The translations under genes and the position numbers were made by a program. This document shows, piece by piece, positions 19,538-32,333 of a stretch of DNA of 64,000 bases. Each line of letters starts with the position of its first letter. Positions within the stretch are counted from its first letter, which is position 1. Under the pieces are notes generated by a model. The model was not told the DNA's origin and did no database searches. It worked only from the letters and a program-made list of their open reading frames with translations. The stretch spans positions 1 to 64,000 of the forward strand of contig CAJXNI010000004.1 in the NCBI GenBank assembly GCA_913057235.1, read 5' to 3'. The stretch is from an uncultured Bacteroidota bacterium. GTDB lineage: Bacteria > Bacteroidota > Bacteroidia > Flavobacteriales > Schleiferiaceae.

Positions 19538-20839
19538 ATGAAAGTAAGAATGTTGTGGTTGTTTTTCTCACTGAGCTTTTTGAACTTAAACGCACAGGTT
19601 GAGGACATTAAAATAATGACCTACAACTTAATGTTCTACAAGGCGAGCAATGCTCCTTGCACACATTCCAGAACTCCCGCCCAAAGAGATCAAGACTTAA
19701 CCACTATTGTAAGTTCTGTTAATCCAGACATAATTTGCGTGAATGAATTAGGCGAAGGCGTGGTAAACCCGCTGTTGGTTAACAGCAATGTTTTAAATGT
19801 TAATGGAGTCAACCATTTTAAAAGCGCCAATAGCACCAACAACTCTTCCAGCAGCTTGGTGAACATGCTTTTTTACAATGAAAACAAGTTTACGCTAGAA
19901 AGCCAGAGCACCCTGCAACGCGACTTAAACAACTTTCCTATCATTAGAGTAATTGATTTTTACCGCCTGTATGTAAATGATGCCGGCCTGGGTAGCCCTG
20001 GAGTAGATACCGTATTTTTTACGATTGCCGTAGCCCACCTTAAAGCCGGTTCTTCCAGCGGAGACCAAAATCAGCGCGAAAATGCGGCCGAAGCCATTAT
20101 GGATTACATTGAAAATAATGTAAGCGATCAAAATGTAATCTTAACCGGTGATTTTAACATTAGAAGCAGCAGTGAAAATTCATACCAGGAATTCATTAAC
20201 TACAGCAATGCTTCAGTGGCCCTGAATGATCCCATAAGCACACCTGGCAGCTGGAATAACAATTCCAATTTTGCCAGTATTCATACGCAAAGTACCCACA
20301 GCAGTGGCACAGGTTGTTTTAGCGGTGGCGGTATGGATGACCGTTTTGATTTCTCACTTATCTCCAATAGCATTTCCAATGGTGCTGATAAGCTTAGGTA
20401 CCAAAACTATTATGCGTATGGCCAAGATGGTTCTTCCTTCAACGGAAGTTTAAATACGTCTAACAATTTCTCCGTAAACAGCGTGGTAGCCAGCGCCCTT
20501 TATAATTTTAGTGATCACCTGCCGGTGATATTGGAATTAGAGGCAAGCGTGAGTGGCATTGGTATTTCAGAAGAAGATTATTGGCAGCGAGTGCTGCAGG
20601 TGCCAAACCCATTCAAGAACCAATTAAATGTACATTTTAAGGGCCAGCAAGCTTTTGAGGATGTTGAAATTAGAGTGATTGATTTGACCGGTTGCACCGT
20701 GGCGCATAAATCTACTAGCAACCTGGCCGCTAATGCTCAGGTGAGTTTTAATACAGAAAAGTGGCGCCCGGGAATTTACTTGCTGACTGTAAGCAAGGCT
20801 AATGGCAGCACGGTAACGCGTAAATTGGTGAAGCACTAA
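19538..20839 (+). CDS. Secreted endonuclease/exonuclease/phosphatase-fold enzyme with T9SS tail
   Basis: A 433-residue secreted hydrolase of the EEP (DNase I-like) superfamily. It has a signal peptide (MKVRMLWLFFSLSFLNLNAQ). The metal and catalytic residues are in place: Asn30 (MTYN), Glu70 (CVNELGEG), His167 (AHLKAG), Asp205/Asn207 (TGDFNIRS) and Asp326/His327 (SDHLPV). The last ~75 residues are a type A sorting domain (VPNPFKNQLNVHFKG ... GIYLLTVSK). It should cleave phosphodiester bonds outside the cell or on its surface; nucleic acid is the likely substrate, although EEP enzymes also act on phospholipid or inositol phosphates. The stop TAA shares a base with the next ATG. Confidence 0.9.
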   Translation: MKVRMLWLFFSLSFLNLNAQVEDIKIMTYNLMFYKASNAPCTHSRTPAQRDQDLTTIVSSVNPDIICVNELGEGVVNPLLVNSNVLNVNGVNHFKSANSTNNSSSSLVNMLFYNENKFTLESQSTLQRDLNNFPIIRVIDFYRLYVNDAGLGSPGVDTVFFTIAVAHLKAGSSSGDQNQRENAAEAIMDYIENNVSDQNVILTGDFNIRSSSENSYQEFINYSNASVALNDPISTPGSWNNNSNFASIHTQSTHSSGTGCFSGGGMDDRFDFSLISNSISNGADKLRYQNYYAYGQDGSSFNGSLNTSNNFSVNSVVASALYNFSDHLPVILELEASVSGIGISEEDYWQRVLQVPNPFKNQLNVHFKGQQAFEDVEIRVIDLTGCTVAHKSTSNLAANAQVSFNTEKWRPGIYLLTVSKANGSTVTRKLVKH

Positions 20840-23004
20840 TGAAAAGGCACGTAATCTTGGGTTTTTGGCTAACGTTGCTAGCTCCCCTCGCTATTGAGGC
20901 GCAAACCAGCTTTGATGAAAAAACAACCACCGCCAGTAACGTACGCTTAAATGTTACCAACCTGGGTACTTTTGGTAACGCTTTTCGCGGATACCGCAGT
21001 GCCAGCGGTAATCCCAGTTGTGAATATCCGGCTGGCTCAGGCATTGAGCACCTTTTTGAAGGAGGTTTATGGATTGGCGCTAAAAACAGCAGTGGCCAGG
21101 TGCTGGTATCTACCTCGGCTTATGATGCTCCCCAGGGCTATGCTCCGGGAAGAGGTGGCTTTGAATTCACCGCCAGCCCCGGCTCTACCCTAGACGAACG
21201 GAGTTCACTATTTGACAATCGCTTTTTTGACCCGGCTGCCGTGTCTCACCAAGACTACACTGCCACCTTTACGGATTCAAACATTACCATACCAGGCACA
21301 CAAATTCCCATTAATGACCATGACCGCCCCATGAACGTGGTAGTGGACATGGAAACCTACAACTGGAACTTCACCTTTACGGACTTTTTGGTAATTGTGA
21401 ACTTTAAAGTGCGCAACGCCAGTAATGTTACCTACGAAGATTTATACCTGGGCTTATGGAATAACACTGTGGTGCGTAACGTAAATGTTACCCCGGCCGG
21501 AGCAGGGGGAGCGGCTTTTTACAATAAAGGTGGTAATGGCTACATGGACAGTCTAAACCTGGCCTACTGTTTTGATGCCACGGGCGACCCAGGATTTACC
21601 GAGAGCTACATTGGCCAAAAATTTCTGGGCGCTAGTGATAAAAACGGTTTTAAGCACCCCGCACTGGACAGTGTTTTCAACACCCAAACCGGGCTGTGGG
21701 ATACTGCAAACACCTTTAACGTAAACTATAATTCTTGGGTGTTTAATGATTTCTCAGCAGACTTTGCCTTCCCGGCAACCGAAGACCAGCGCTACCGCAA
21801 AATGGAGGAAGGCCTGGAAGACGACCCATGCTGGGATGACCCAACAGCTGGTAACTGCGGTGGCACAACCATTCAAGCACTGCTCGAGGCTTCTGGCAAC
21901 CGCTCTGATTTAATTTCGGCTGGCCCCATCAATGATTTTGCTCCAGGAGATGAAATTGAGTTTTCTTTTGCCTACGTATTGGCTAAGAAAAATGAAGACG
22001 GCAATCCCAATACCGATAACAATCGTACGCAACGTACTAACCTCATTGCCAATGCCGGTTGGGCACAGCAGGCTTTTAATGGAGAAGACCAAAACTTCAA
22101 CGGGGTACTGGACCCAGGCGAAGACAATGATGGCGATGGCCAACTTACCCGTTTTATTTTACCGAGCCCACCCGCCATACCACGCACCACCATTGTACCT
22201 TCTGATAATCAAATAGATATTTACTGGGCCGATAATTCGCGTAATTCCATTGACCCCATCAGCAATGAAAAAGATTTTGAAGGCTACCGGGTGTACTTAT
22301 CCCGCCAGGGATTTGACGTAACCGGAGTGCAAAACCTGGCCGAAGATTTTAACCTTATTGCCCAATACGATCAAGCAGGAAACGGACTATTTAACGAAAC
22401 TGGCTTTGAAGCCATCGCCCTAGATGAACCCGTGTTTTTTGAGAATGACACCACCGCCTACGTGTACAAATACACCATTGAGAATATTCCCAATGGTTGG
22501 CAGTATGCCGTGGCCGTGACCGCTTTTGATCGGGGTAACCCCGAGAGTAATCTGGAGAGTTTGGAGTCCAGCTTTTTGGCCAATAATTATCGGGCCTTTG
22601 CGGGAACCCTACCCAACCCCAACATGGAAGAAAACTTACCTTTTGCCTACCCTAACCCTTATTACTATGGAGCTGCCTGGGAAGGCCGTTCAAACTTTCA
22701 GGAAGAAAGCCGTAAAATCATTTTTGCCAATTTACCCAAACGCTGTGTGATTCGAATTTACACGGTGTCTGGCGATTTTATTGATGAGATAAGACATGAT
22801 GAAAATTACAGTGGTAGTGACATCCGCTGGTTTGAAACCTTTGGAGCTGAAGATGCTTCCGAAAACCGTTTTTCAGGTGGCGAACACGCCTGGGATCTTT
22901 TATCCTTAAATAGCCAAATTATTAGCCGTGGTCTGTATCTGTTTTCAGTACAGGATTTGGACAGCGGTGAACGTACAACCGGAAAATTTATAATTATCAA
23001 ATAA
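20839..23004 (+). CDS. Large secreted protein with FN3-like and FlgD/T9SS-like C-terminal domains
   Basis: A 721-residue exported protein of unknown activity with signal peptide MKRHVILGFWLTLLAPLAIEAQ. The N-terminal ~400 residues are beta-rich without recognised motifs. An Asp-rich loop DQNFNGVLDPGEDNDGDG near 420 resembles a calcium-binding EF/dockerin loop. A fibronectin III-like domain follows (IDIYWADNSRN ... FEGYRVYLSRQG). The C-terminal ~115 residues begin FAYPNPYYYG and contain IRIYTVSGDFIDEI, then end GKFIIIK, like FlgD-type or type A sorting domains but with a long insertion. It starts on the last base of the nuclease stop codon, so the two are translationally coupled. Confidence 0.78.
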   Translation: MKRHVILGFWLTLLAPLAIEAQTSFDEKTTTASNVRLNVTNLGTFGNAFRGYRSASGNPSCEYPAGSGIEHLFEGGLWIGAKNSSGQVLVSTSAYDAPQGYAPGRGGFEFTASPGSTLDERSSLFDNRFFDPAAVSHQDYTATFTDSNITIPGTQIPINDHDRPMNVVVDMETYNWNFTFTDFLVIVNFKVRNASNVTYEDLYLGLWNNTVVRNVNVTPAGAGGAAFYNKGGNGYMDSLNLAYCFDATGDPGFTESYIGQKFLGASDKNGFKHPALDSVFNTQTGLWDTANTFNVNYNSWVFNDFSADFAFPATEDQRYRKMEEGLEDDPCWDDPTAGNCGGTTIQALLEASGNRSDLISAGPINDFAPGDEIEFSFAYVLAKKNEDGNPNTDNNRTQRTNLIANAGWAQQAFNGEDQNFNGVLDPGEDNDGDGQLTRFILPSPPAIPRTTIVPSDNQIDIYWADNSRNSIDPISNEKDFEGYRVYLSRQGFDVTGVQNLAEDFNLIAQYDQAGNGLFNETGFEAIALDEPVFFENDTTAYVYKYTIENIPNGWQYAVAVTAFDRGNPESNLESLESSFLANNYRAFAGTLPNPNMEENLPFAYPNPYYYGAAWEGRSNFQEESRKIIFANLPKRCVIRIYTVSGDFIDEIRHDENYSGSDIRWFETFGAEDASENRFSGGEHAWDLLSLNSQIISRGLYLFSVQDLDSGERTTGKFIIIK

Positions 23005-23014
23005 ACCCTTACAC

Positions 23015-25228
23015 ATGAGAAATTTACTTACTCTTTTTGTAGTGGCTTGCAGTTTGGCATTCAGTCAGGCGCAAACCTATCCTTTGGTTACGGTTTCACA
23101 GATCAATACCAACATTGATCGTGCTAACTGTAACGACACTTCTGTTGCCTTAGGCGACACGGTGCGCATTCGTGTACACGTGGTAACCGATGGTGGCCTT
23201 TCAGAAGTTGCTTCTGGTTCGGTACAAGGTGGTAACCGTCCCTTTATTTACATGATTGATACTTCTGCCAATGGCGCTGCCACACCAGACCAAGGCATTG
23301 AAGTAATGGGTGTGTATGAAGATGCCAGTAGCAACTTACAACCTGTGCCTGGTTTCACCGCCCTATTCCAAGGTGATAAAGTAGAAGTAACCGGTATTGT
23401 TGAGCAATTTAGCGGTAATACTCAGTTCACTACGCTAGACGTGAATTCAGTAACCTTATTGGCTTCAGGCGATTTACCCGCCAGTGCCTTTACACCTGCG
23501 GTGGTTCCTTTAGGTGACCTTAACGATAACCAACGCGTTAATAATGTGCAACAAGGCGAGCAATGGCAAAACAGCTTTGTAGAGTTGCAAAACGTAACCG
23601 TGGTTCAGGTAACTCCTTTTAGTGGGAACCGGGTGAGTTTTGATGTGCAAGATGCCAACGGAAACCTCATCAACGTAAGTGACCGCTTTTTGGCACAACG
23701 TACTCCCTCGCACACCATTGTTAACCCTAACAGTCCTTCAACCAGCGGTACGGGAAGTTTTGTACCCCCTAGCGTAGGTACTTTCTACACTTCATTGAAA
23801 GGTATTATCCGTCATAGCGCTAACGGCTGTACAGGTGGTACCGGCCGTGGATATGAGATCAACCCGTTTGACTCTACCCACTATGAGGTAGGCGCTTCTG
23901 CCCCTAACATCAATAACGTGATTAACATTCCGTTGCAGCCTACCAGCAGTGACCCCGTAACCATTACAGCTACCATTACCGATGCTGATGGAACTATTGA
24001 TACCGCAGACATTTACTACAGTACGGACCCTACCTTACCTTCAAGCCAGTTTACCAAAGCGGCTATGAGTTTTGTGGGTAATGACAACTATGAGTTTGTG
24101 GTACCTGCGCAACCCAACGGAACTTTAGTTCGCTATTACATCAAAGCAGTTGATAATGACAATAGCGCAGTGGTACTACCGGTAAGTCCGGCCAACGCAA
24201 CCAATCCTTTCTTTAATCACTACACCGTGCGAGATGGCGGCCTTAAGATTTTTGACATTCAGTACAGTGGTAATGGAACCGGTGAATCTGCTTTAGAAGG
24301 TCAAACCGTAACAGTACAGGGAGTAGTAACCGCGGCACGCAGAGATTGTGATTTAGAGTATGTGTACATCCAGGATCCTACCGATAGTCTGTATTCAGGA
24401 ATTGCTTTAATTCCTAACCAAGACTTAGGTGACCTTTACCGCGACCAGTGGGTAGAAGTAACCGGTACCGTGCAAGAAACTTTTGGCGTGACCTATTTGA
24501 ATGTAACCAATGTAGACGGTTTGCCTCTTTCTCAAACCATCATGCCTACCGCTGTAAATCCTTCTGACGCCAACTTAGACCTTGAGCCTTACGAGGGTAT
24601 GCTCATTTCTTTTGAAGATCCGGCCAACGGACAAATTGAAGTAAGCACTGCAGACTTAGGCTTTGGTGAATACGGAGTAGCCGTAGTTGGCAGCAGTGAT
24701 GAGTCTAGAGTATTGGCTGGCCGCCAGGATGGTACCCGCGCTACCTCTAGCTTGTATGTTTCATTGGTGGCCGACACCTCTTACAACACGCAAAACGGTG
24801 CTATGCAAGTACCTCCTGTAGCTACGCAGCAGGGCATGACCATGGACGCCATTCAAGGGGTTCTTTGGTTTAGCTTTGGCAACTACAAGTTGTTGCCTCG
24901 TAACAATTTTGATATTGTGAATCTGAGCGTAGCGCTAGACACCAACAACTGTAACGTGCCTACCAACGTAAGCCTTGCCGAAGTAGAAGAAGCTCAGGTA
25001 GCCGTATACCCTAACCCTGCGCAAAATGTATTGAATATAAGCGTAGAAGGAACGGCCAAGGTAGAAGCACAGCTTTACAACCTTAACGGCAGCTTAGTGA
25101 AATCATTCGCTAAAGCCGGTTCAGGTCAATTAAACGTAAGCGACTTACCAGCCGGTATGTACTTGCTAAAAGTGAACGCAGCTTCATTGAATATTAACCG
25201 TACTTACAAAGTAATGGTTACCCAATAA
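23015..25228 (+). CDS. Secreted protein with ExeM-like OB-fold domains and T9SS tail
   Basis: A 737-residue exported protein with signal peptide MRNLLTLFVVACSLAFSQAQ. Two regions look like the OB-fold domains attached to ExeM/NucH-type extracellular nucleases: about 40-150 (LGDTVRIRVHVV ... GDKVEVTGIVEQFSGNTQF) and 422-515 (TVTVQGVVTAARRD, YVYIQDPTDSLYSGIAL, WVEVTGTVQETFGV). Between them lies an Ig-like domain (ITATITDADGTIDTADIYY). The last ~75 residues are a canonical type A sorting domain (VAVYPNPAQNVLNIS ... LPAGMYLLKVN). There is no nuclease domain here; a separate EEP nuclease is two genes upstream. It begins 10 bases after the preceding gene and ends just before a strong terminator. 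Confidence 0.82.
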   Translation: MRNLLTLFVVACSLAFSQAQTYPLVTVSQINTNIDRANCNDTSVALGDTVRIRVHVVTDGGLSEVASGSVQGGNRPFIYMIDTSANGAATPDQGIEVMGVYEDASSNLQPVPGFTALFQGDKVEVTGIVEQFSGNTQFTTLDVNSVTLLASGDLPASAFTPAVVPLGDLNDNQRVNNVQQGEQWQNSFVELQNVTVVQVTPFSGNRVSFDVQDANGNLINVSDRFLAQRTPSHTIVNPNSPSTSGTGSFVPPSVGTFYTSLKGIIRHSANGCTGGTGRGYEINPFDSTHYEVGASAPNINNVINIPLQPTSSDPVTITATITDADGTIDTADIYYSTDPTLPSSQFTKAAMSFVGNDNYEFVVPAQPNGTLVRYYIKAVDNDNSAVVLPVSPANATNPFFNHYTVRDGGLKIFDIQYSGNGTGESALEGQTVTVQGVVTAARRDCDLEYVYIQDPTDSLYSGIALIPNQDLGDLYRDQWVEVTGTVQETFGVTYLNVTNVDGLPLSQTIMPTAVNPSDANLDLEPYEGMLISFEDPANGQIEVSTADLGFGEYGVAVVGSSDESRVLAGRQDGTRATSSLYVSLVADTSYNTQNGAMQVPPVATQQGMTMDAIQGVLWFSFGNYKLLPRNNFDIVNLSVALDTNNCNVPTNVSLAEVEEAQVAVYPNPAQNVLNISVEGTAKVEAQLYNLNGSLVKSFAKAGSGQLNVSDLPAGMYLLKVNAASLNINRTYKVMVTQ

Positions 25229-25235
25229 ACTGATT

Positions 25236-25275
25236 AAGCAACTGCCCGAAACCGGGCAGTTGCTTTTCTTTTTCA
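25236..25275 (+). terminator. Strong internal terminator between secreted and membrane genes
   Basis: The stem AAGCAACTGCCCG (25236-25248), loop AAAC and exact complement (25253-25265) give 13 paired bases followed by a U-rich tract (TTTTCTTTTTC). It lies 7 bases after the stop of 23015-25228 and only ~20 bases before the next gene. No -7 box is seen between them, so downstream genes probably depend on read-through. Confidence 0.92.
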
Positions 25276-25284
25276 TTGCAGATT

Positions 25285-26763
25285 ATGCCTTCAAAAAAAA
25301 CTACTCACTACTTCAGGTTACCATGCTTAGCGCTTGGTTTGGTTTTGGCTTTAGCCGGATGTCGTAAAGGAGAAATTGACGCTAATGGCATTCCTGAAAC
25401 CAAGCTCGCTTTTGAAACCATCAATCGCAGTGGTGATCAAAGGCTCAACTCATCGGTGCGCTTATCTTGGTTTGGCGCCGATAGCGATGGGTACATTGAA
25501 GGTTATGAGATTTCTTTAGACCAAACCAACTGGTTTTACACCACCACTCAAGATTCTGTCTTTCTCTTTGACATCCCAGCTGGACAAGATTCAGCAGACA
25601 TTGACTTTTACGTACGCGCCATAGATAATGACGGCAACGTAGACCCTACCCCTGCCTATTTGCAGGTACCTTTAAAAAATTCACCGCCCACCGCTTCATT
25701 AATTGATGAGCGCAGCCCGGGCGATACCGTATTTATTGCCGCCACTTATTTTTGGTCGGCCGATGACCCTGATGGCACCAATACCCTGGATCAAGTACAA
25801 ATGAAAATTAATGATGGAGACTGGGTAACCATCGACCGGAGTCAAAACCTCATTACCTTTTTGCCCGATACGGGCCAAAGCACAGGCACCGTAAGTTCCC
25901 GCATTTATTACGGCAACAGTACCGCCCCCAGTGGGCAAACCATTGACGGCATCCGTTTAAACGATACCAACCGGGTGTACATTAAAGCCATTGACATTGC
26001 AGAAAGTGAAAGCCCGGTAGACACCAGTGAGGTGTTTTACTTTAGGCCCAAAACACCTGATGTTTCTACCCTATGGGTAAACGGCCACAGTGAGACCCTT
26101 GCCCCTCAGTACCGTGCACTACTCAATGCCAATAACCTAAACTATGACGTGTTAGACCTAGGCAACCAAAGCAGTAACAGCATCCCAAAATATTTTGACC
26201 CTACCGTGCAGCTTATTTTTGCGCAGTACAGTGAGGCCTTTATAAACCTTAGCACCACCAGCATTACCAGCCCTATCACAGGTGAAAGCAACACACTTTT
26301 GGGCTTTTTGGCGCCCGTAATACAGCGCTTTGTAGATCGCAGTTTTAAACCCGGCAAATATTTCATTACCACGTCATTTGATAAATCATCCGATGTAACC
26401 GATCTGGCCACCGTGTATCCTATCCAGGGTTTATCTATTTCTACCGTGCCAGGCAGCCAGGCACGTATTGTTTCAGACAGCAGCTTGGTAGCCACCCAAA
26501 CGGGTAACTACCCCGCTCTGCAGTCCAATAGTGTTCAGTTTGGCATAGTGCCTATTGTACCTAGTACAGATGCCCAAACCTTTTACCGCGCACAGCTTAC
26601 CAAATTCAGAGGTTGGAATGGCCCCACCGATGTGGTGGGCGTACGCAGATTTAGAAATAACCAATTGAACGAAGTCTTTTTTGCGCTGGAACTGCATAAT
26701 TTTCAGAAGAACAGTGCCGCACTGGAACAACTAATAGGCGAAATTTTCAACAATGAGTTTTAA
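25285..26763 (+). CDS. Surface or periplasmic lipoprotein with FN3-like domains
   Basis: A 492-residue lipoprotein. ATG 25285 is preferred over TTG 25276. The signal peptide ends in lipobox LALAGC with Cys26. Residues ~40-140 form an FN3-like domain (VRLSWFGADSDGYIEGYEI ... FYVRAIDNDGNVDP). A second such domain follows (TYFWSADDPDGTNTLDQV ... VYIKAIDIAESESPV). The C-terminal ~230 residues (VSTLWVNGHSETLAPQYRALL onward) resemble an alpha/beta glutamine-amidotransferase-like fold, but no catalytic residues are recognised. The last 11 bases overlap the start of the TonB-dependent receptor gene, which suggests the two proteins work together on the outer membrane. Confidence 0.78.
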   Translation: MPSKKTTHYFRLPCLALGLVLALAGCRKGEIDANGIPETKLAFETINRSGDQRLNSSVRLSWFGADSDGYIEGYEISLDQTNWFYTTTQDSVFLFDIPAGQDSADIDFYVRAIDNDGNVDPTPAYLQVPLKNSPPTASLIDERSPGDTVFIAATYFWSADDPDGTNTLDQVQMKINDGDWVTIDRSQNLITFLPDTGQSTGTVSSRIYYGNSTAPSGQTIDGIRLNDTNRVYIKAIDIAESESPVDTSEVFYFRPKTPDVSTLWVNGHSETLAPQYRALLNANNLNYDVLDLGNQSSNSIPKYFDPTVQLIFAQYSEAFINLSTTSITSPITGESNTLLGFLAPVIQRFVDRSFKPGKYFITTSFDKSSDVTDLATVYPIQGLSISTVPGSQARIVSDSSLVATQTGNYPALQSNSVQFGIVPIVPSTDAQTFYRAQLTKFRGWNGPTDVVGVRRFRNNQLNEVFFALELHNFQKNSAALEQLIGEIFNNEF

Positions 26764-29584
26764 AAAGCTAGTTCTGCTCTTTTCGCTCACGCTCGTTGGC
26801 GGATGGCTACAGGCGCAAAAAGCAGCCTCCCTATCGGGTAAGGTTTTTGATGCAAACAATGGCGATCCCTTAATTGGCGCCAACATAACTATTGTGGGTA
26901 CCTACAAAGGAGCTTCAGCTGATATTAACGGCAACTACGTAATCAATGGCATAAAGCCAGGTGACTACTCCATTAAGGTGCAGTTCATTGGATATGAAAC
27001 CAAGCTATATACCGGTATCACTTTTTCTAATGGCGAGAAGAAAGAACTCACCATTAAACTAAAGGAACAAACCGAGCGGCTGAATGAGGTAACCGTGGTA
27101 GGGCGTAAAGGCCAAATTGACTTGGAAGCGGCCGCCAGTGAGGTGTCTATAACCCAACAGGAAATCGCACAGATGAATGTGCGTGATGTACAAGAGGTGA
27201 TTCAAATGCAGGCGGGTGTGGTTAAAACCCCCGATGGCTTGCAAATTAGAGGCGCCCGCGTATATGAAACCGAATACATTGTAGACGGTATTTCGGCCCA
27301 GGATCCATTGGCCGGTACAGGCTTTGGAGTAGATGTAAACAGTTCAGCCATTTCCAGCGTAGACCTTATAACCGGGGGTGTAGGCGCTGAGTATGGGGGC
27401 GGTAGTTCTGGCGTGGTGAACACCAAAATTAGAGAAGGCGGTGAAAAGTTTGAAATCAGCGGAAGCTACCAAAGAGATAACCTGGGTGACCCCAGTGTAG
27501 CCACCTCTTTCAATACCGATCGCATGGAGCTAAACGTTTCCACGCCCCTTACCAAGAACAAAAAATTTACGCTTTTTGCCAGCGGAAGCGTATTCTTAAC
27601 AGATGAGTATTTCCCCAATCAAGCCGATCAACTAAACAGTTCGCTTTTTAGTAATAACCCTGAGTTTTGGGCTCCGCGCCAAACCAACTCCTACACCAAC
27701 ACGGTTAAGCTGAGCTATAAAATTGCTTCGGGTACCAAAATAACCTTAACCAACCAGCACTCACTAAATATTAACCAAAACACACGTACCCTGCAAATAG
27801 TAGGTTTTGACGCTATTTTGGCGCCCGGCTACCAATACGCCCGCTCCAATAATTTAGATAATGCCACCACCTACACGCATCACAGTAACCTTACCGCTCT
27901 TAACCTTAATCACCTCATCAACAAACGCTGGGGCTTAAGTTTCTCGGCTGGCCGGCTCTTCACCAACCTTAGAGCCGATGCCAATGGCCGCCCTTTCCGC
28001 ACGGAAACGGTAGACCAAATTCTAGACGAGGACAATATAATTACCTACCCGGTGGGACTTTTTAATCCGGGTGACCCCACCGGTATTTACTTTGTAAACG
28101 CAGGAGACGGTCTGGTAAATAACGGGGGTATTACGCCCGTTTGGCACGATCACTACGCCCAGGAGTACACTTTTAATGCAAAGGCTACCTACATTCCCAA
28201 CCAAAACAACGAGCTCAGTTTTGGTATCCAAAACACGTTTACAGAATACCAATGGGTAGACGTCTCGCGGCCCTGGGTGGGGGCACCCATTCAAATCAAT
28301 GACTCGGTTTCTACCCAAAGTGTGAGCATCGGTTCCAGCAACGACATTTGGGCGGTAAACCCCATTGAGGGCGGCATTTTTGTGCAGGATAAAATTACCT
28401 ACAAAGGCATCATTGCTACCTTAGGCCTGCGTATGAATTACTGGGCACCCGGTAAGTTTGCCGATGATGCCGTAAACGATCCCACTGCCCCGGTGATTGA
28501 TCAAGTGCGTAAAGACTATTTAGACAAGACTTCCGAGGTTTTTGGCCTTCGCTGGAAAGCCCGCCTGCTCCCAAAAATTAATGTGAGCTTCCCGGTAACG
28601 GAAAACAACGTGCTGTATTTCAACTACGGCCACAGTATGCGCTTGCCGCACCCACGCTTCCTTTATGCTGGTTTAGACCCCACCTACCAAGATCGCTCTT
28701 TCCTTTCTAGTTTGGGTAACCCCGATATTGACCCGGAAGTAAATGTGAGCTATGAAATTGGTCTGAAATCCAAGCTTACGCAAGATTTAGCCCTTACCCT
28801 TACTGCTTTTAACAACAACCGCTTTGATTACATTGTATCGCGCAGGGTAATTGTGGAAGACCAAACCGGCCGCCCCACCACTAAAAACTTTTACATTAAC
28901 CAAGACTACGCTAAAATTTACGGTCTGGAGGTAGGGCTGAATTACCGCATTGGTCAGTACCTAAGAACTTTTAGCAACGTGGCCTACCAAGTGGCCCGCG
29001 GTAAATCAAACTCGGCCCGTGAGTCTTCTTTGCAAATAGAGCAAAATGGCGAAGTGCCCCTTACGCAAGAGCAGTTTCTAGCCTTTGACCGGCCCTGGAA
29101 TATTAATGCCGGTATTGTGTTTGCCCCAGATAGTACGCTGCCTATTTTAGGAGCAGATCTCACGGGCTTCACCGCCTTTTTAAGCTACCAGTTCACTTCT
29201 GGATTCAGGTATACTCCGCACCGGCAAATTGGTACCAATGAATTAGGGCGCCCGCAGTATGAACCCATAATTGATCAGTTTTTGCAGGCTACCGCTGAGC
29301 CCTGGAATAACTTTGATTTAAAATTACGCTACAACATTCCTACTGGCCTTAAAAAAGGAAAAGGGGTTTCCGTTTCGCTGGAAATTCGCAACCTCTTAGA
29401 TGCCCGTAATTCTCAAATTGTGAACCCCGTTACTGGCCGAGCCTACCGTTTTGGTGATGACGTTCCGCTTGAATGGCGAGACCCCCGTTTCAATGGGCCA
29501 CAGGAAAGGGGCTTAGACCCACGCAACCCCGCACGTTACCTGGCTCCACGTCAAATTTTATACGGAATAGAATTTAGGTTTTAG
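26753..29584 (+). CDS. TonB-dependent receptor with CarboxypepD-regulatory-like domain
   Basis: A 943-residue outer-membrane receptor with signal peptide MSFKKLVLLFSLTLVGGWLQAQ. Residues ~26-105 are a CarboxypepD_reg-like Ig domain (LSGKVFDANNGDPLIGANI). The plug spans about 120-240 (VIQMQAGVVKTPDGLQIRGA, VDLITGGVGAEYGGGSSGVV). The rest is a 22-strand barrel ending in Phe (GIEFRF). Such receptors import large substrates with energy from TonB; in Bacteroidota they usually pair with a surface lipoprotein, but no SusD homolog is here. It overlaps the preceding lipoprotein gene by 11 bases and lies 2 bases before a PorV-like gene. Confidence 0.93.
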   Translation: MSFKKLVLLFSLTLVGGWLQAQKAASLSGKVFDANNGDPLIGANITIVGTYKGASADINGNYVINGIKPGDYSIKVQFIGYETKLYTGITFSNGEKKELTIKLKEQTERLNEVTVVGRKGQIDLEAAASEVSITQQEIAQMNVRDVQEVIQMQAGVVKTPDGLQIRGARVYETEYIVDGISAQDPLAGTGFGVDVNSSAISSVDLITGGVGAEYGGGSSGVVNTKIREGGEKFEISGSYQRDNLGDPSVATSFNTDRMELNVSTPLTKNKKFTLFASGSVFLTDEYFPNQADQLNSSLFSNNPEFWAPRQTNSYTNTVKLSYKIASGTKITLTNQHSLNINQNTRTLQIVGFDAILAPGYQYARSNNLDNATTYTHHSNLTALNLNHLINKRWGLSFSAGRLFTNLRADANGRPFRTETVDQILDEDNIITYPVGLFNPGDPTGIYFVNAGDGLVNNGGITPVWHDHYAQEYTFNAKATYIPNQNNELSFGIQNTFTEYQWVDVSRPWVGAPIQINDSVSTQSVSIGSSNDIWAVNPIEGGIFVQDKITYKGIIATLGLRMNYWAPGKFADDAVNDPTAPVIDQVRKDYLDKTSEVFGLRWKARLLPKINVSFPVTENNVLYFNYGHSMRLPHPRFLYAGLDPTYQDRSFLSSLGNPDIDPEVNVSYEIGLKSKLTQDLALTLTAFNNNRFDYIVSRRVIVEDQTGRPTTKNFYINQDYAKIYGLEVGLNYRIGQYLRTFSNVAYQVARGKSNSARESSLQIEQNGEVPLTQEQFLAFDRPWNINAGIVFAPDSTLPILGADLTGFTAFLSYQFTSGFRYTPHRQIGTNELGRPQYEPIIDQFLQATAEPWNNFDLKLRYNIPTGLKKGKGVSVSLEIRNLLDARNSQIVNPVTGRAYRFGDDVPLEWRDPRFNGPQERGLDPRNPARYLAPRQILYGIEFRF

Positions 29585-29586
29585 GC

Positions 29587-30600
29587 ATGAAAAATATCGC
29601 ATATCTAATACTTACCGCTATCCTAGCCTTAAACCTGGCCCACGGCCAAATTCTCCCCAACTTTGGTGGTGAGCGCGCGGGTTTATCGGCCTTGAGCTTT
29701 CTAAAAAATGATATGAGCACCCGCTCTTTAGCCATGGGTGGTGCCAGTGTGGCCCTTTCGGGCGATGGCTACAGTAGCCAAAACAACCCTGCTGCCCTGG
29801 TAGATTTAGAAAACACCACCTATACCCTGAGCCACCTGTTTTTAGGCGGAGGCGTGAACCAATCTTTTGTAGCCGCCAATTACCCTTTGGATGATAAAGT
29901 AAGTACCCTCTCGTTTAGTTTAAATTCACTGAACAGTGGGGAAATGGAAGAACGTACCGAGTTTATGCCCATGGGTACGGGACGTCAGGTTTTTGTGACC
30001 AACCTGGCCGTGGGGGCCACCTACAGCCGCCAGTTATCTTCACTTTTTAGTGCGGGTGTAACGGTAAAGTATGTGTACGAAGGCATTGCCAATTACCACA
30101 ACAGCACCGCCACGGTAGACGTGGCCTTTTTGTACAACACGGATTATAAAGACTTGAAATTTGCGGTAATGGTGCAGAATTTCGGGGGCAACTCTGCCTT
30201 AAATTCCAATGATGATATACCGGTAACTTTCAACCGCAATACCGGGGTTGAGCTAGACGCCAACACGGTGCCCACGGTTTTTAAATTAGGGATGAGTATT
30301 ACTCCGTACAAAACCGATATGCACAGCCTTACTACCAGCTTGCAATTGAACCACCCCAATGACAATGCTGAAAACTACCGTTTGGGCGTTGAGTACAACC
30401 TTAAAGATTTATTCTTTGCCCGGGCTGGTTACCGCATTAGCGTGCGCCACCAACACATCCCCACCTTTGGCTTTGGGGTAAAAGCCCGCTTAGGGGGTTT
30501 GCCCTTTACCATAGACTATGCCGCCAACCCCACCAACTTTTTGGGTATGCAGCACGGTTTGGGTCTTCAAATTGAACTATTAAGCAATAACAGCCGGTAA
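29587..30600 (+). CDS. PorV/PorQ family outer-membrane protein
   Basis: A 337-residue beta-barrel protein of the PorV/PorQ family (FadL-related). It has a signal peptide (MKNIAYLILTAILALNLAHGQ). The family signature follows: GLSALSFLKNDMSTRSLAMGG, then SQNNPAALVDL. Later strands (TVKYVYEGIANYHNSTATVD, AGYRISVRHQH, LGLQIELL) fit a barrel. In T9SS, PorV shuttles cargo from the translocon to the surface attachment complex, and PorQ helps in sorting. This copy lies among cargo and receptor genes, not among T9SS core genes, so it may serve this locus specifically. Its stop is followed directly by the next ATG. Confidence 0.85.
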   Translation: MKNIAYLILTAILALNLAHGQILPNFGGERAGLSALSFLKNDMSTRSLAMGGASVALSGDGYSSQNNPAALVDLENTTYTLSHLFLGGGVNQSFVAANYPLDDKVSTLSFSLNSLNSGEMEERTEFMPMGTGRQVFVTNLAVGATYSRQLSSLFSAGVTVKYVYEGIANYHNSTATVDVAFLYNTDYKDLKFAVMVQNFGGNSALNSNDDIPVTFNRNTGVELDANTVPTVFKLGMSITPYKTDMHSLTTSLQLNHPNDNAENYRLGVEYNLKDLFFARAGYRISVRHQHIPTFGFGVKARLGGLPFTIDYAANPTNFLGMQHGLGLQIELLSNNSR

Positions 30601-31824
30601 ATGAAAACTATCAAAAGCATATTCGGCTTCTTAGCCCTGGTGCTATTCTTTAGCAGCTGTGAAGATTACTTGGGTAAAAAAACCGATTTAGATTTTATAG
30701 ACATTCCACCCGATAACACTGTGCGGGACATTGCCTACGTGCCCATTTTTCCGGTGTTAGACAATTTTAGCCGGCCGGTAGACATAACCACCGGATTTGA
30801 TGAATTGCTTTACATAGCAGATGAAGCGGCAGGAGAAGTAATTGCCATGGATGAGGCCGGTAATGTTTTAGCGCGTAAAGCCATACCGGGCGCGAAAGCC
30901 GTGGTGCAAGACCGCAAGTTTGACCTGCTGGTAATTGGTACCAAAGACACTATTGTGAATGCCGGTGGTAGAGACACTTCCTTAACTCTTTCAGCTATTT
31001 ACCGCCTGCGCCTGGTGGGGAATGGTTACAACCTGAACAATGCCGAAGTGGTAAACACCATAGTTCACCCATTTTACTACACCCAAAACAATCCGGTAGA
31101 CAAAACTATTGAGCAGGTGAGCTTTCAAGATATTGCCATTATTGGGAATAACAGTGACCCCAACCAAAACAATCAGTTTTATGTAACCCGCCAGGGGCAA
31201 GGCTCATCCGGACCACTAGGGCCCAATGATGCGGTGCTGTATTTCAGTAATGAAGACGAGTTTATCTCACCCATCTCAGTACAAACCTCAGCTGGTTTTT
31301 TCAATGATTATTTTCAAGACCCCAGCGGTATTTTCACCCTCACACAACCTCCGCAGCTTAGCGCTCAAGGCGGAAGAGACTTTGTGTACACCTCATTGGA
31401 TCCCAATAATGCCTTAAAGGTGCAGTACATTGAATTTATTGAAGGGGAGTTTGGCGCAGAATACCGCCCTAAGATTTTAGCTTCCGCTGATACCAGTCAG
31501 GCTGATGGCTTTATCAATAGCCCTAATAAATTTAGTAGGCCGGTAGATGCTACCTTAGCGGGAGACGGAAGTCAGTTTATTTTTGTGGTAGATACAGACA
31601 CCGATTCCTTGTATCAGTTTTCATTTACAGGTTTTGAAGGCGTTTTGCCGCCCCCGGCCGCCAATATTGATCGGTATCAAAAAGCCAGTTTTGGAGGCAC
31701 GGGTTCCAGCGCCACGCAGTTTAGGGATCCCACGTCAGTGGCGTACTTTAAAAATATAGTGTACGTAGCTGATGCCGGGAATGGACGAATTTTGCGTTTT
31801 AAACTCACGCTGGATTTTGATTAA
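30601..31824 (+). CDS. NHL-repeat beta-propeller lipoprotein
   Basis: A 407-residue lipoprotein whose signal peptide ends in lipobox FFSSC with Cys20. The rest reads as a beta-propeller of NHL-like blades: FSRPVDITTGFDELLYIADE, FSRPVDATLAGDGSQFIFVVD and FRDPTSVAYFKNIVYVADAGNGRILRF, each with the pattern of a phrase such as 'rPvdva' followed by a 'yvaDag' strand. Propellers of this kind bind proteins or glycans; no catalytic residues are recognised. It starts immediately after the PorV-like gene stop (no gap) and is the last gene of the unit. No good terminator follows; a new promoter appears at 31907. Confidence 0.82.
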   Translation: MKTIKSIFGFLALVLFFSSCEDYLGKKTDLDFIDIPPDNTVRDIAYVPIFPVLDNFSRPVDITTGFDELLYIADEAAGEVIAMDEAGNVLARKAIPGAKAVVQDRKFDLLVIGTKDTIVNAGGRDTSLTLSAIYRLRLVGNGYNLNNAEVVNTIVHPFYYTQNNPVDKTIEQVSFQDIAIIGNNSDPNQNNQFYVTRQGQGSSGPLGPNDAVLYFSNEDEFISPISVQTSAGFFNDYFQDPSGIFTLTQPPQLSAQGGRDFVYTSLDPNNALKVQYIEFIEGEFGAEYRPKILASADTSQADGFINSPNKFSRPVDATLAGDGSQFIFVVDTDTDSLYQFSFTGFEGVLPPPAANIDRYQKASFGGTGSSATQFRDPTSVAYFKNIVYVADAGNGRILRFKLTLDFD

Positions 31825-31922: not shown

Positions 31923-32333
31923 ATGCGAAGTTATTTGACGTCAATAGCATTTATTCTATTTCTGGCTTTCAGTCTTTCAGGCTTCAGCCAGAAAGGACCC
32001 GGCAGTGGTAGTGCTCCGGCAACTTGCCCTTTATATGTTCCTAAAGCCTTTACACCAAATGGCGATGATTTGAACGAAACCTTCCTCATCCGCGTAAGCG
32101 AAAGCTGCCAAATTGAAAGCTATAGCATTACCATTTTTGACCGCTGGGGCCAAGTAGTTTATGAGAGCAACAGTCTGCTTGAATCTCAGGCCTGGAATGG
32201 GAAAATTAGGGGCAGTGACGCCCGCCCCGGGGTGTACATGTATAAGATTACGGCAAAACTCCTTCCGGTTAATAGCCCTACCGGCAAAAGCGAAGTAAAG
32301 AACCTTCAGGGTAGCCTGGTACTGCTTCGTTAG
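31923..32333 (+). CDS. Small secreted protein made of a T9SS type B sorting domain
   Basis: A 136-residue protein with a signal peptide (MRSYLTSIAFILFLAFSLSGFSQ), a ~12-residue Gly/Ser spacer, and then only a type B (gliding-motility-associated, CHU_C) C-terminal domain. The domain motifs are VPKAFTPNGDDLNE at 39-52, ITIFDRWGQVVYES near 76-89, WNGKIRG and GVYMYKI. Normally this ~90-residue domain ends proteins of several hundred to thousands of residues, so a protein with no cargo is unusual. It is the first gene of an operon with a DUF2141 protein, a putative outer-membrane protein and an S41 peptidase. Function is unknown. Confidence 0.85.
   Translation: MRSYLTSIAFILFLAFSLSGFSQKGPGSGSAPATCPLYVPKAFTPNGDDLNETFLIRVSESCQIESYSITIFDRWGQVVYESNSLLESQAWNGKIRGSDARPGVYMYKITAKLLPVNSPTGKSEVKNLQGSLVLLR

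Follow-up and report, generated by a model that had tools for sequence, protein, structure and literature searches.

A conserved six-gene block of the FCB group, possibly a type IX-exported and TonB-energised surface complex for extracellular nucleic acid

The window analysed here, a 64,000-nucleotide stretch (positions 1 to 64,000 of contig CAJXNI010000004.1, assembly GCA_913057235.1) from an uncultured member of the Schleiferiaceae (Bacteroidota; Flavobacteriales) with a 2.83-Mb genome, contains seven exported open reading frames (ORFs) at positions 19538-31824, all on the + strand and designated A to G (Table 1). Six of these, in the order B-C-D-E-F-G, form a deeply conserved core inherited across the FCB (Fibrobacterota-Chlorobiota-Bacteroidota) group, to which the nuclease gene A does not belong. 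Because very different secreted nuclease-type enzymes recur beside the block, it may capture extracellular DNA or RNA. There is, in our judgement, slightly better than an even chance that the block encodes a surface complex, built through the type IX secretion system (T9SS) and energised by TonB, that binds nucleic acid outside the cell and takes up the polymer or its fragments, whether as food, as a phosphorus source, or as DNA for transformation.

The block should do something important, given that it keeps one order across several phyla, occurs in single copy, and includes a receptor that is 58-81% identical within the family. It reads as a variant of the TonB-dependent surface uptake systems that scores as neither a SusC/SusD pair nor PorV proper, with a sizeable chance of being something more unusual. 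Neither a function for the block nor a description of it was found in the open-access literature searched, a scope that lies outside subscription journals and preprints. The broader proposal, that it is the machine with which much of the FCB group draws DNA or RNA through the outer membrane, operating without type IV pili and of a kind not previously described, is tentative and rather doubtful. If nucleic-acid uptake were confirmed, it would explain by what route Bacteroidota that lack pili, and their relatives, get DNA or parts of it across the outer membrane, and would add a class of TonB receptors with T9SS-delivered partners.

The six-gene core

Conservation was assessed in 35 genomes of the family, 141 other genomes of the order and 395 genomes of the phylum. 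Within Schleiferiaceae, A to G occur in the same order and orientation in 22 fetched relatives; three genomes of one genus lack A directly upstream with B-G intact, and in the remaining fetched relatives the block is cut by contig ends. Identity within the family is highest for E and B (55-73% for the latter) and among the lowest for A (35-56%). Orthologs of E are present in 34 of the 35 family genomes and in none of the 141 others, and the block is absent from most Flavobacteriales genomes outside Schleiferiaceae. One member of the family with a complete 4-Mb genome (G003) contains neither B nor E; sister species of its genus retain both, offering a natural contrast for comparison.

A profile of B detects a full-length relative in 109 of the 395 phylum genomes (E 1e-95 or better), nearly always in single copy. 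Among 40 loci from outside the family, picked by similarity to B, 36 carry B-C-D-E-F-G in the same order and on one strand, an arrangement far beyond chance expectation. The four exceptions comprise two loci with an extended D and no separate C, and two that consist of B-C only. The full block was found on named contigs of Ignavibacteria, Melioribacteraceae, candidate division KSB1 and Fermentibacteria, and its start, up to the contig end, on contigs of Neomarinimicrobiota and Eisenbacteria. The T9SS translocon protein SprA/Sov is encoded in all 17 cluster-bearing genomes tested, including those of KSB1, Fermentibacteria, Eisenbacteria and Neomarinimicrobiota. An earlier sequence-only reading of this DNA had proposed a self-contained seven-gene machine, which would fail if the genes scattered independently in relatives. 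No such scattering is seen, and order is conserved for six of the genes; the nuclease moves or is absent, so the unit is one of six genes rather than seven.

Phosphodiesterase neighbours and a proposed uptake route

The product of gene A matches the endonuclease/exonuclease/phosphatase (EEP) family (PF03372, E 1.8e-7) and ends in a type A T9SS tail recognised by both Pfam and NCBIfam (PF18962, E 1.4e-12, 48.1 bits against a cut-off of 27). Eight active-site positions examined (N30, E70, H167, D205, N207, D271, D326 and H327) are identical in 24 orthologs, and it is predicted from sequence to be a nuclease with a complete set of catalytic residues. The position of A differs between lineages. 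When the gene directly 3' of G was read in the 37 loci where this slot is visible, all selected by B similarity only, 19 encoded a phosphodiesterase on the same strand, -7 to 118 bases from G. These enzymes belong to three unrelated families: EEP, phospholipase D (PLD) and type I phosphodiesterase/nucleotide pyrophosphatase (NPP). The PLD proteins combine OB/DUF5689, FN3 and PLD domains with a T9SS tail. One further locus has an EEP enzyme before B, as in Schleiferiaceae, and in one lineage an EEP enzyme, a lamin-tail (LTD) protein and endonuclease I follow consecutively.

Across the rest of the same sequences, only three such phosphodiesterases occur among ~860 ORFs (Fisher p ~3e-26, uncorrected for shared ancestry). 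The loci with a phosphodiesterase neighbour span ~11 families besides Schleiferiaceae, and genomes with an EEP neighbour contain only 3 to 8 EEP genes in total. That unrelated phosphodiesterases stand in for one another in this slot is the strongest argument that the substrate is nucleic acid. It strengthens the hint of extracellular nucleic acid that the sequence-only reading had drawn from the nuclease and OB-fold domains, and these neighbours make the substrate question directly testable.

A route for uptake can be proposed on this basis. B and C would be exported through the T9SS and held at the surface, together with the putative outer-membrane lipoproteins D and G, over E, which would act as a TonB-energised gated barrel. 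The PorV-like barrel F would either hand B and C to the complex or belong to it. The OB-fold protein C is the likely contact for extracellular nucleic acid, which the secreted nuclease of the adjacent gene (A in this genome; in other lineages, a nucleotide pyrophosphatase or an enzyme of the PLD type) would trim, and E would then import the polymer or the cut pieces with energy from TonB.

Proteins of the block and its layout

B, retained more widely than any other member of the block, matches no Pfam or NCBIfam model, and sequence searches against solved structures returned no match. Its AlphaFold2 model (pLDDT 88) suggests that residues 22-440 resemble the supersandwich N-domains of glycosidases and phosphorylases (9ju0, Z 19.6 over 250 residues, root-mean-square deviation (rmsd) 3.0). 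In the model, the helical catalytic barrel of those enzymes is absent, and the domain is succeeded by a predicted FN3-like part and then a divergent tail of T9SS-like type. The tail model PF18962 matches none of 57 B homologs, and NCBIfam likewise finds no tail in B. Profile-profile comparison (hhalign) aligns the B tail with that of C (Prob 96.4, E 1e-9; controls gave no match), and 'type A-like' is thus a fair term for it. Of the three type A-like tails claimed, those of A and C are borne out by family models, and that of B is a candidate on profile alignment. B or B plus C were also encountered as solitary genes in Bacteroidia and other lineages (L123, L135, L174-L176, L195, L199-L203), and B may also function independently of the receptor. 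The WbqC- and TsaB-like genes just upstream of solo-B loci were considered as partners and rejected as housekeeping neighbours. One genome (G027) encodes a second, partial copy of B, ~50% identical and covering residues 19-440 only, with the rest of the block absent (L066:8624-9901).

C carries a type A tail that both Pfam and NCBIfam detect (PF18962, E 1.7e-13, 51.1 bits, cut-off 27). Weak matches to the OB-fold model PF01336 were obtained for 11 of 25 C homologs and to DUF5689 for three of 25. By hhalign, C aligns with the OB part of OB-PLD nucleases (Prob 97.4, E 1.5e-11), and less clearly with DUF5689 lipoproteins (Prob 76). A full ExeM/NucH nuclease was rejected for C, since only model positions 1-219 of 546 are matched and the nuclease half is missing.

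D is modelled by AlphaFold2 with a pLDDT of 90 as two FN3/Ig domains and a GATase/ThuA-like domain (2gk3, Z 14.3 over 199 residues, rmsd 3.3). Its lipobox cysteine, residue 26 counted from the ATG at 25285, is invariant in 35 homologs, which makes this start more likely than the TTG at 25276; as it is also the sole invariant cysteine, the GATase-like domain has no conserved catalytic cysteine. G contains an NHL repeat (PF01436, E 9.6e-6), a lipobox with an invariant Cys20 and a conserved C-terminal KLTLDFD motif. Neither D nor G matches SusD in Pfam or NCBIfam. E retains the plug, barrel and CarboxypepD_reg_2 extension, scores 74.4 bits against a cut-off of 368.25 for the SusC family (TIGR04056), and in sequence searches of solved structures finds general TonB receptors only. 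The inference that this is not a standard polysaccharide locus but a dedicated surface gene set outside the SusC/SusD type is thus upheld.

F belongs to the PorV/PorQ superfamily (NF033709, 163.8 bits, cut-off 90) and lies below the equivalog cut-offs for PorV (65.3 bits against 250), PorQ and PorV2. It is one of five proteins of this family over the cut-off in the genome; PorV (432.7 bits), PorQ (346 bits), PorV2 (458 bits) and one more paralog are encoded elsewhere. F as the sole PorV of the genome, which would have undercut the idea of a dedicated complex, was rejected, as a separate true PorV exists. The family membership of F, the three tailed cargos adjoining it and the universal presence of SprA in the tested genomes are consistent with an auxiliary T9SS attachment or sorting module, in which D to G would serve to mature a subset of type A cargo (B, C and the nuclease) or to anchor it at the surface, with no import. 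This is the least probable of the explanations considered, and an improbable one. True PorV, PorQ and PorV2 are already available to the cell, E keeps its plug, barrel and extension and is with B the most conserved gene, and the block is missing from most of the surrounding order. B-C-D-E moreover occurs without adjacent F-G (L145, L148, L154, L157, L159, L164), so F, hypothetically the dedicated PorV of the three tails, is in some cases not a neighbour of B and C.

The layout that the sequence-only reading gave, seven exported genes in one direction with short junctions and one terminator-containing gap, was reproduced in full. A and B overlap by 1 base and D and E by 11, and gaps of 10, 2 and 0 bases separate B-C, E-F and F-G. 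The C-D gap contains a perfect 13-bp hairpin followed by TTTTCTTTTT (Table 1). A comparable long hairpin stands 3' of C in ~2/3 of the relatives from the same family, with differing sequences, and it probably lowers expression of D-G relative to A-C, leaving secreted parts in excess over membrane parts. Directly 3' of the block (window 31923-32333), and in the same place in several relatives, a 136-aa protein is encoded that has little besides a signal peptide and a T9SS tail of the CHU_C type. An AsmA-like gene (u1) and other genes upstream were rejected as members of the block, being conserved only in part of Schleiferiaceae.

Table 1. Genes of the block and the hairpin between C and D, with positions in the window
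Feature	Position	Strand	Length and properties
A, secreted EEP-family enzyme	19538..20839	+	433 aa; PF03372, PF18962
B, secreted protein	20839..23004	+	721 aa; predicted supersandwich, FN3-like part, divergent T9SS-like tail
C, secreted protein	23015..25228	+	737 aa; OB-fold domain(s), T9SS type A tail
Terminator-like intercistronic hairpin, C-D gap	25229..25284	+	-24.7 kcal/mol, z = -6.25
D, lipoprotein	25285..26763	+	492 aa; predicted FN3/Ig x2 and GATase1/ThuA/IFT52-like domain
E, TonB-dependent receptor with CarboxypepD_reg_2 extension	26753..29584	+	943 aa; PF13715, PF07715, PF00593
F, PorV/PorQ-family outer-membrane protein, paralog of true PorV	29587..30600	+	337 aa; NF033709
G, NHL-repeat lipoprotein	30601..31824	+	407 aa; PF01436, lipobox

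Related receptor loci and known systems

A paralogous arrangement is present in the same genome, where a TonB receptor of 1255 aa, a B-like protein of 1356 aa with no Pfam match, and a PorV-family protein adjoin greA/HIT/ruvC (contig C23, L319:6822-15735). The same arrangement recurs in other genomes and families of the order (L320-L324), and also in G003, which lacks the E cluster. The ~1250-aa receptor of this greA-side trio is the nearest paralog of E. The trio supports the idea that E, B and F work together, and suggests that a receptor, a B-type and a PorV-type protein constitute a recurring unit. Another receptor/OB-protein set lies on contig C12 of this genome (L325:8369-15933), consisting of a lipoprotein, a TonB receptor of 1024 aa and a 1051-aa T9SS protein with cupredoxin, DUF5689 and three lamin-tail domains.

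Other families of Flavobacteriales encode a second, different clade of TonB receptor. Its companions there are an OB-PLD enzyme and a lamin-tail protein, whereas in Flavobacteriaceae-type genomes the same clade is accompanied by a DUF5689 lipoprotein together with an EEP enzyme of divergent sequence. These look-alike loci appear to share the arrangement of RA0C_RS04915 and RA0C_RS04920 of Riemerella anatipestifer, a match of architecture rather than sequence. Both genes are essential for natural transformation in that organism, a species devoid of pili (PMC8459023), and transformation is also reduced in its tonB mutants (PMC8383284). Flavobacteriaceae and sister families widely possess loci that pair a receptor with a DUF5689 lipoprotein or an OB-PLD enzyme (L285-L304); these usually include an EEP or PLD enzyme, which adds a nuclease to the two-gene transformation locus of Riemerella.

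By analogy, the block could be an outer-membrane DNA-uptake apparatus for natural transformation where the Riemerella-type pair is absent, a special case of nucleic-acid import that we regard as unlikely, ranking just above the T9SS module. A TonB receptor, a putative OB-fold/DUF5689 protein and an EEP or PLD enzyme are common to the transformation-type loci and the block. Within the order, none of the sampled Schleiferiaceae has the strong form of the transformation-type receptor; they carry E instead, and the other genomes lack the E cluster. The receptor clades are nevertheless distinct: E forms its own clade (support 100/100), separate from the transformation-type receptors, with each clade supported at 100/99 or better. 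E was therefore rejected as an ortholog of the latter, its best paralogs being the ~1250-aa receptors. An adjoining secreted nuclease also argues, at least in part, for degradation.

The position of E in the tree is one of several points that weigh against import of nucleic acid more generally. As E groups outside the transformation-type receptors, the transformation phenotype is not transferable by orthology, and the observation that the two receptor types exclude each other within the order is weak evidence, being phylogenetically one event and a single family-level contrast. About half of the lineages have no nuclease adjoining the block. Phosphodiesterases are also frequent among secreted enzymes in general, and some of them (NPP and PLD) can have other substrates. 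On some Bacteroidia contigs B-C-D-E stands apart from F-G, and some lineages have B alone or B-C alone. Finally, glycan binding is an equally good reading of the supersandwich domain modelled for B.

Several of these points also speak for a TonB-dependent importer of another nutrient (a glycan, phospholipid head group, metal or cofactor), beside which the nucleases would be co-regulated cargo, for example under phosphate stress. The binding module would then be the B domain, whose modelled fold is of the glycosidase/phosphorylase N-domain type, or the G propeller; surface lipoproteins built as beta-propellers, BtuG among them, assist receptors whose ligands are of other kinds. Half of the loci lack a nuclease, and both NPP and PLD enzymes can cleave non-nucleic phosphodiesters. 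This importer is the most credible of the three alternatives, although still unlikely. The loci examined showed no recognisable glycoside hydrolase, SusD or sulfatase next to the block, C has OB-folds rather than carbohydrate modules, and three unrelated phosphodiesterase families in one slot are hard to explain on this basis.

Compared with known systems, the block resembles the Riemerella pair and its look-alikes in having a CarboxypepD_reg-type receptor, a putative OB/DUF5689 partner and, as in the look-alikes, an adjoining nuclease (EEP or OB-PLD). It differs in receptor clade and in that no homolog of B, D, F or G was seen in the look-alike loci; the Riemerella-type partner is a DUF5689/DUF5017 protein, and the match to Riemerella is by architecture only. 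With SusC/SusD (TIGR04056) it shares a TonB receptor with a CarboxypepD_reg extension and surface lipoproteins, but it has no SusD and no recognised glycan enzymes, and it includes two T9SS-exported partners and a PorV-like barrel. The PorV/PorU/PorQ/PorZ attachment complex of the T9SS likewise involves the family of F, here beside type A-tailed proteins, whereas true PorV and PorQ are encoded elsewhere, F lies below all equivalog cut-offs, and a TonB receptor and a pair of lipoproteins are also encoded in the block. BtuB/BtuG, a parallel in description, also places a propeller lipoprotein beside a TonB receptor, to which the block adds the partners B, C, D and F and the nuclease neighbours. 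ExeM/NucH (NF033681) unites an OB-type N-terminal domain and an EEP nuclease that are here two separate proteins, C and A; C, in which the nuclease half is missing, reaches 54 bits where the cut-off is 300. The greA-side trio (receptor of ~1250 aa, B-like protein of ~1400 aa and PorV-like protein) likewise joins a receptor, a B-related and a PorV-like protein in one operon, and differs from the block in having no C, D, G or nuclease.

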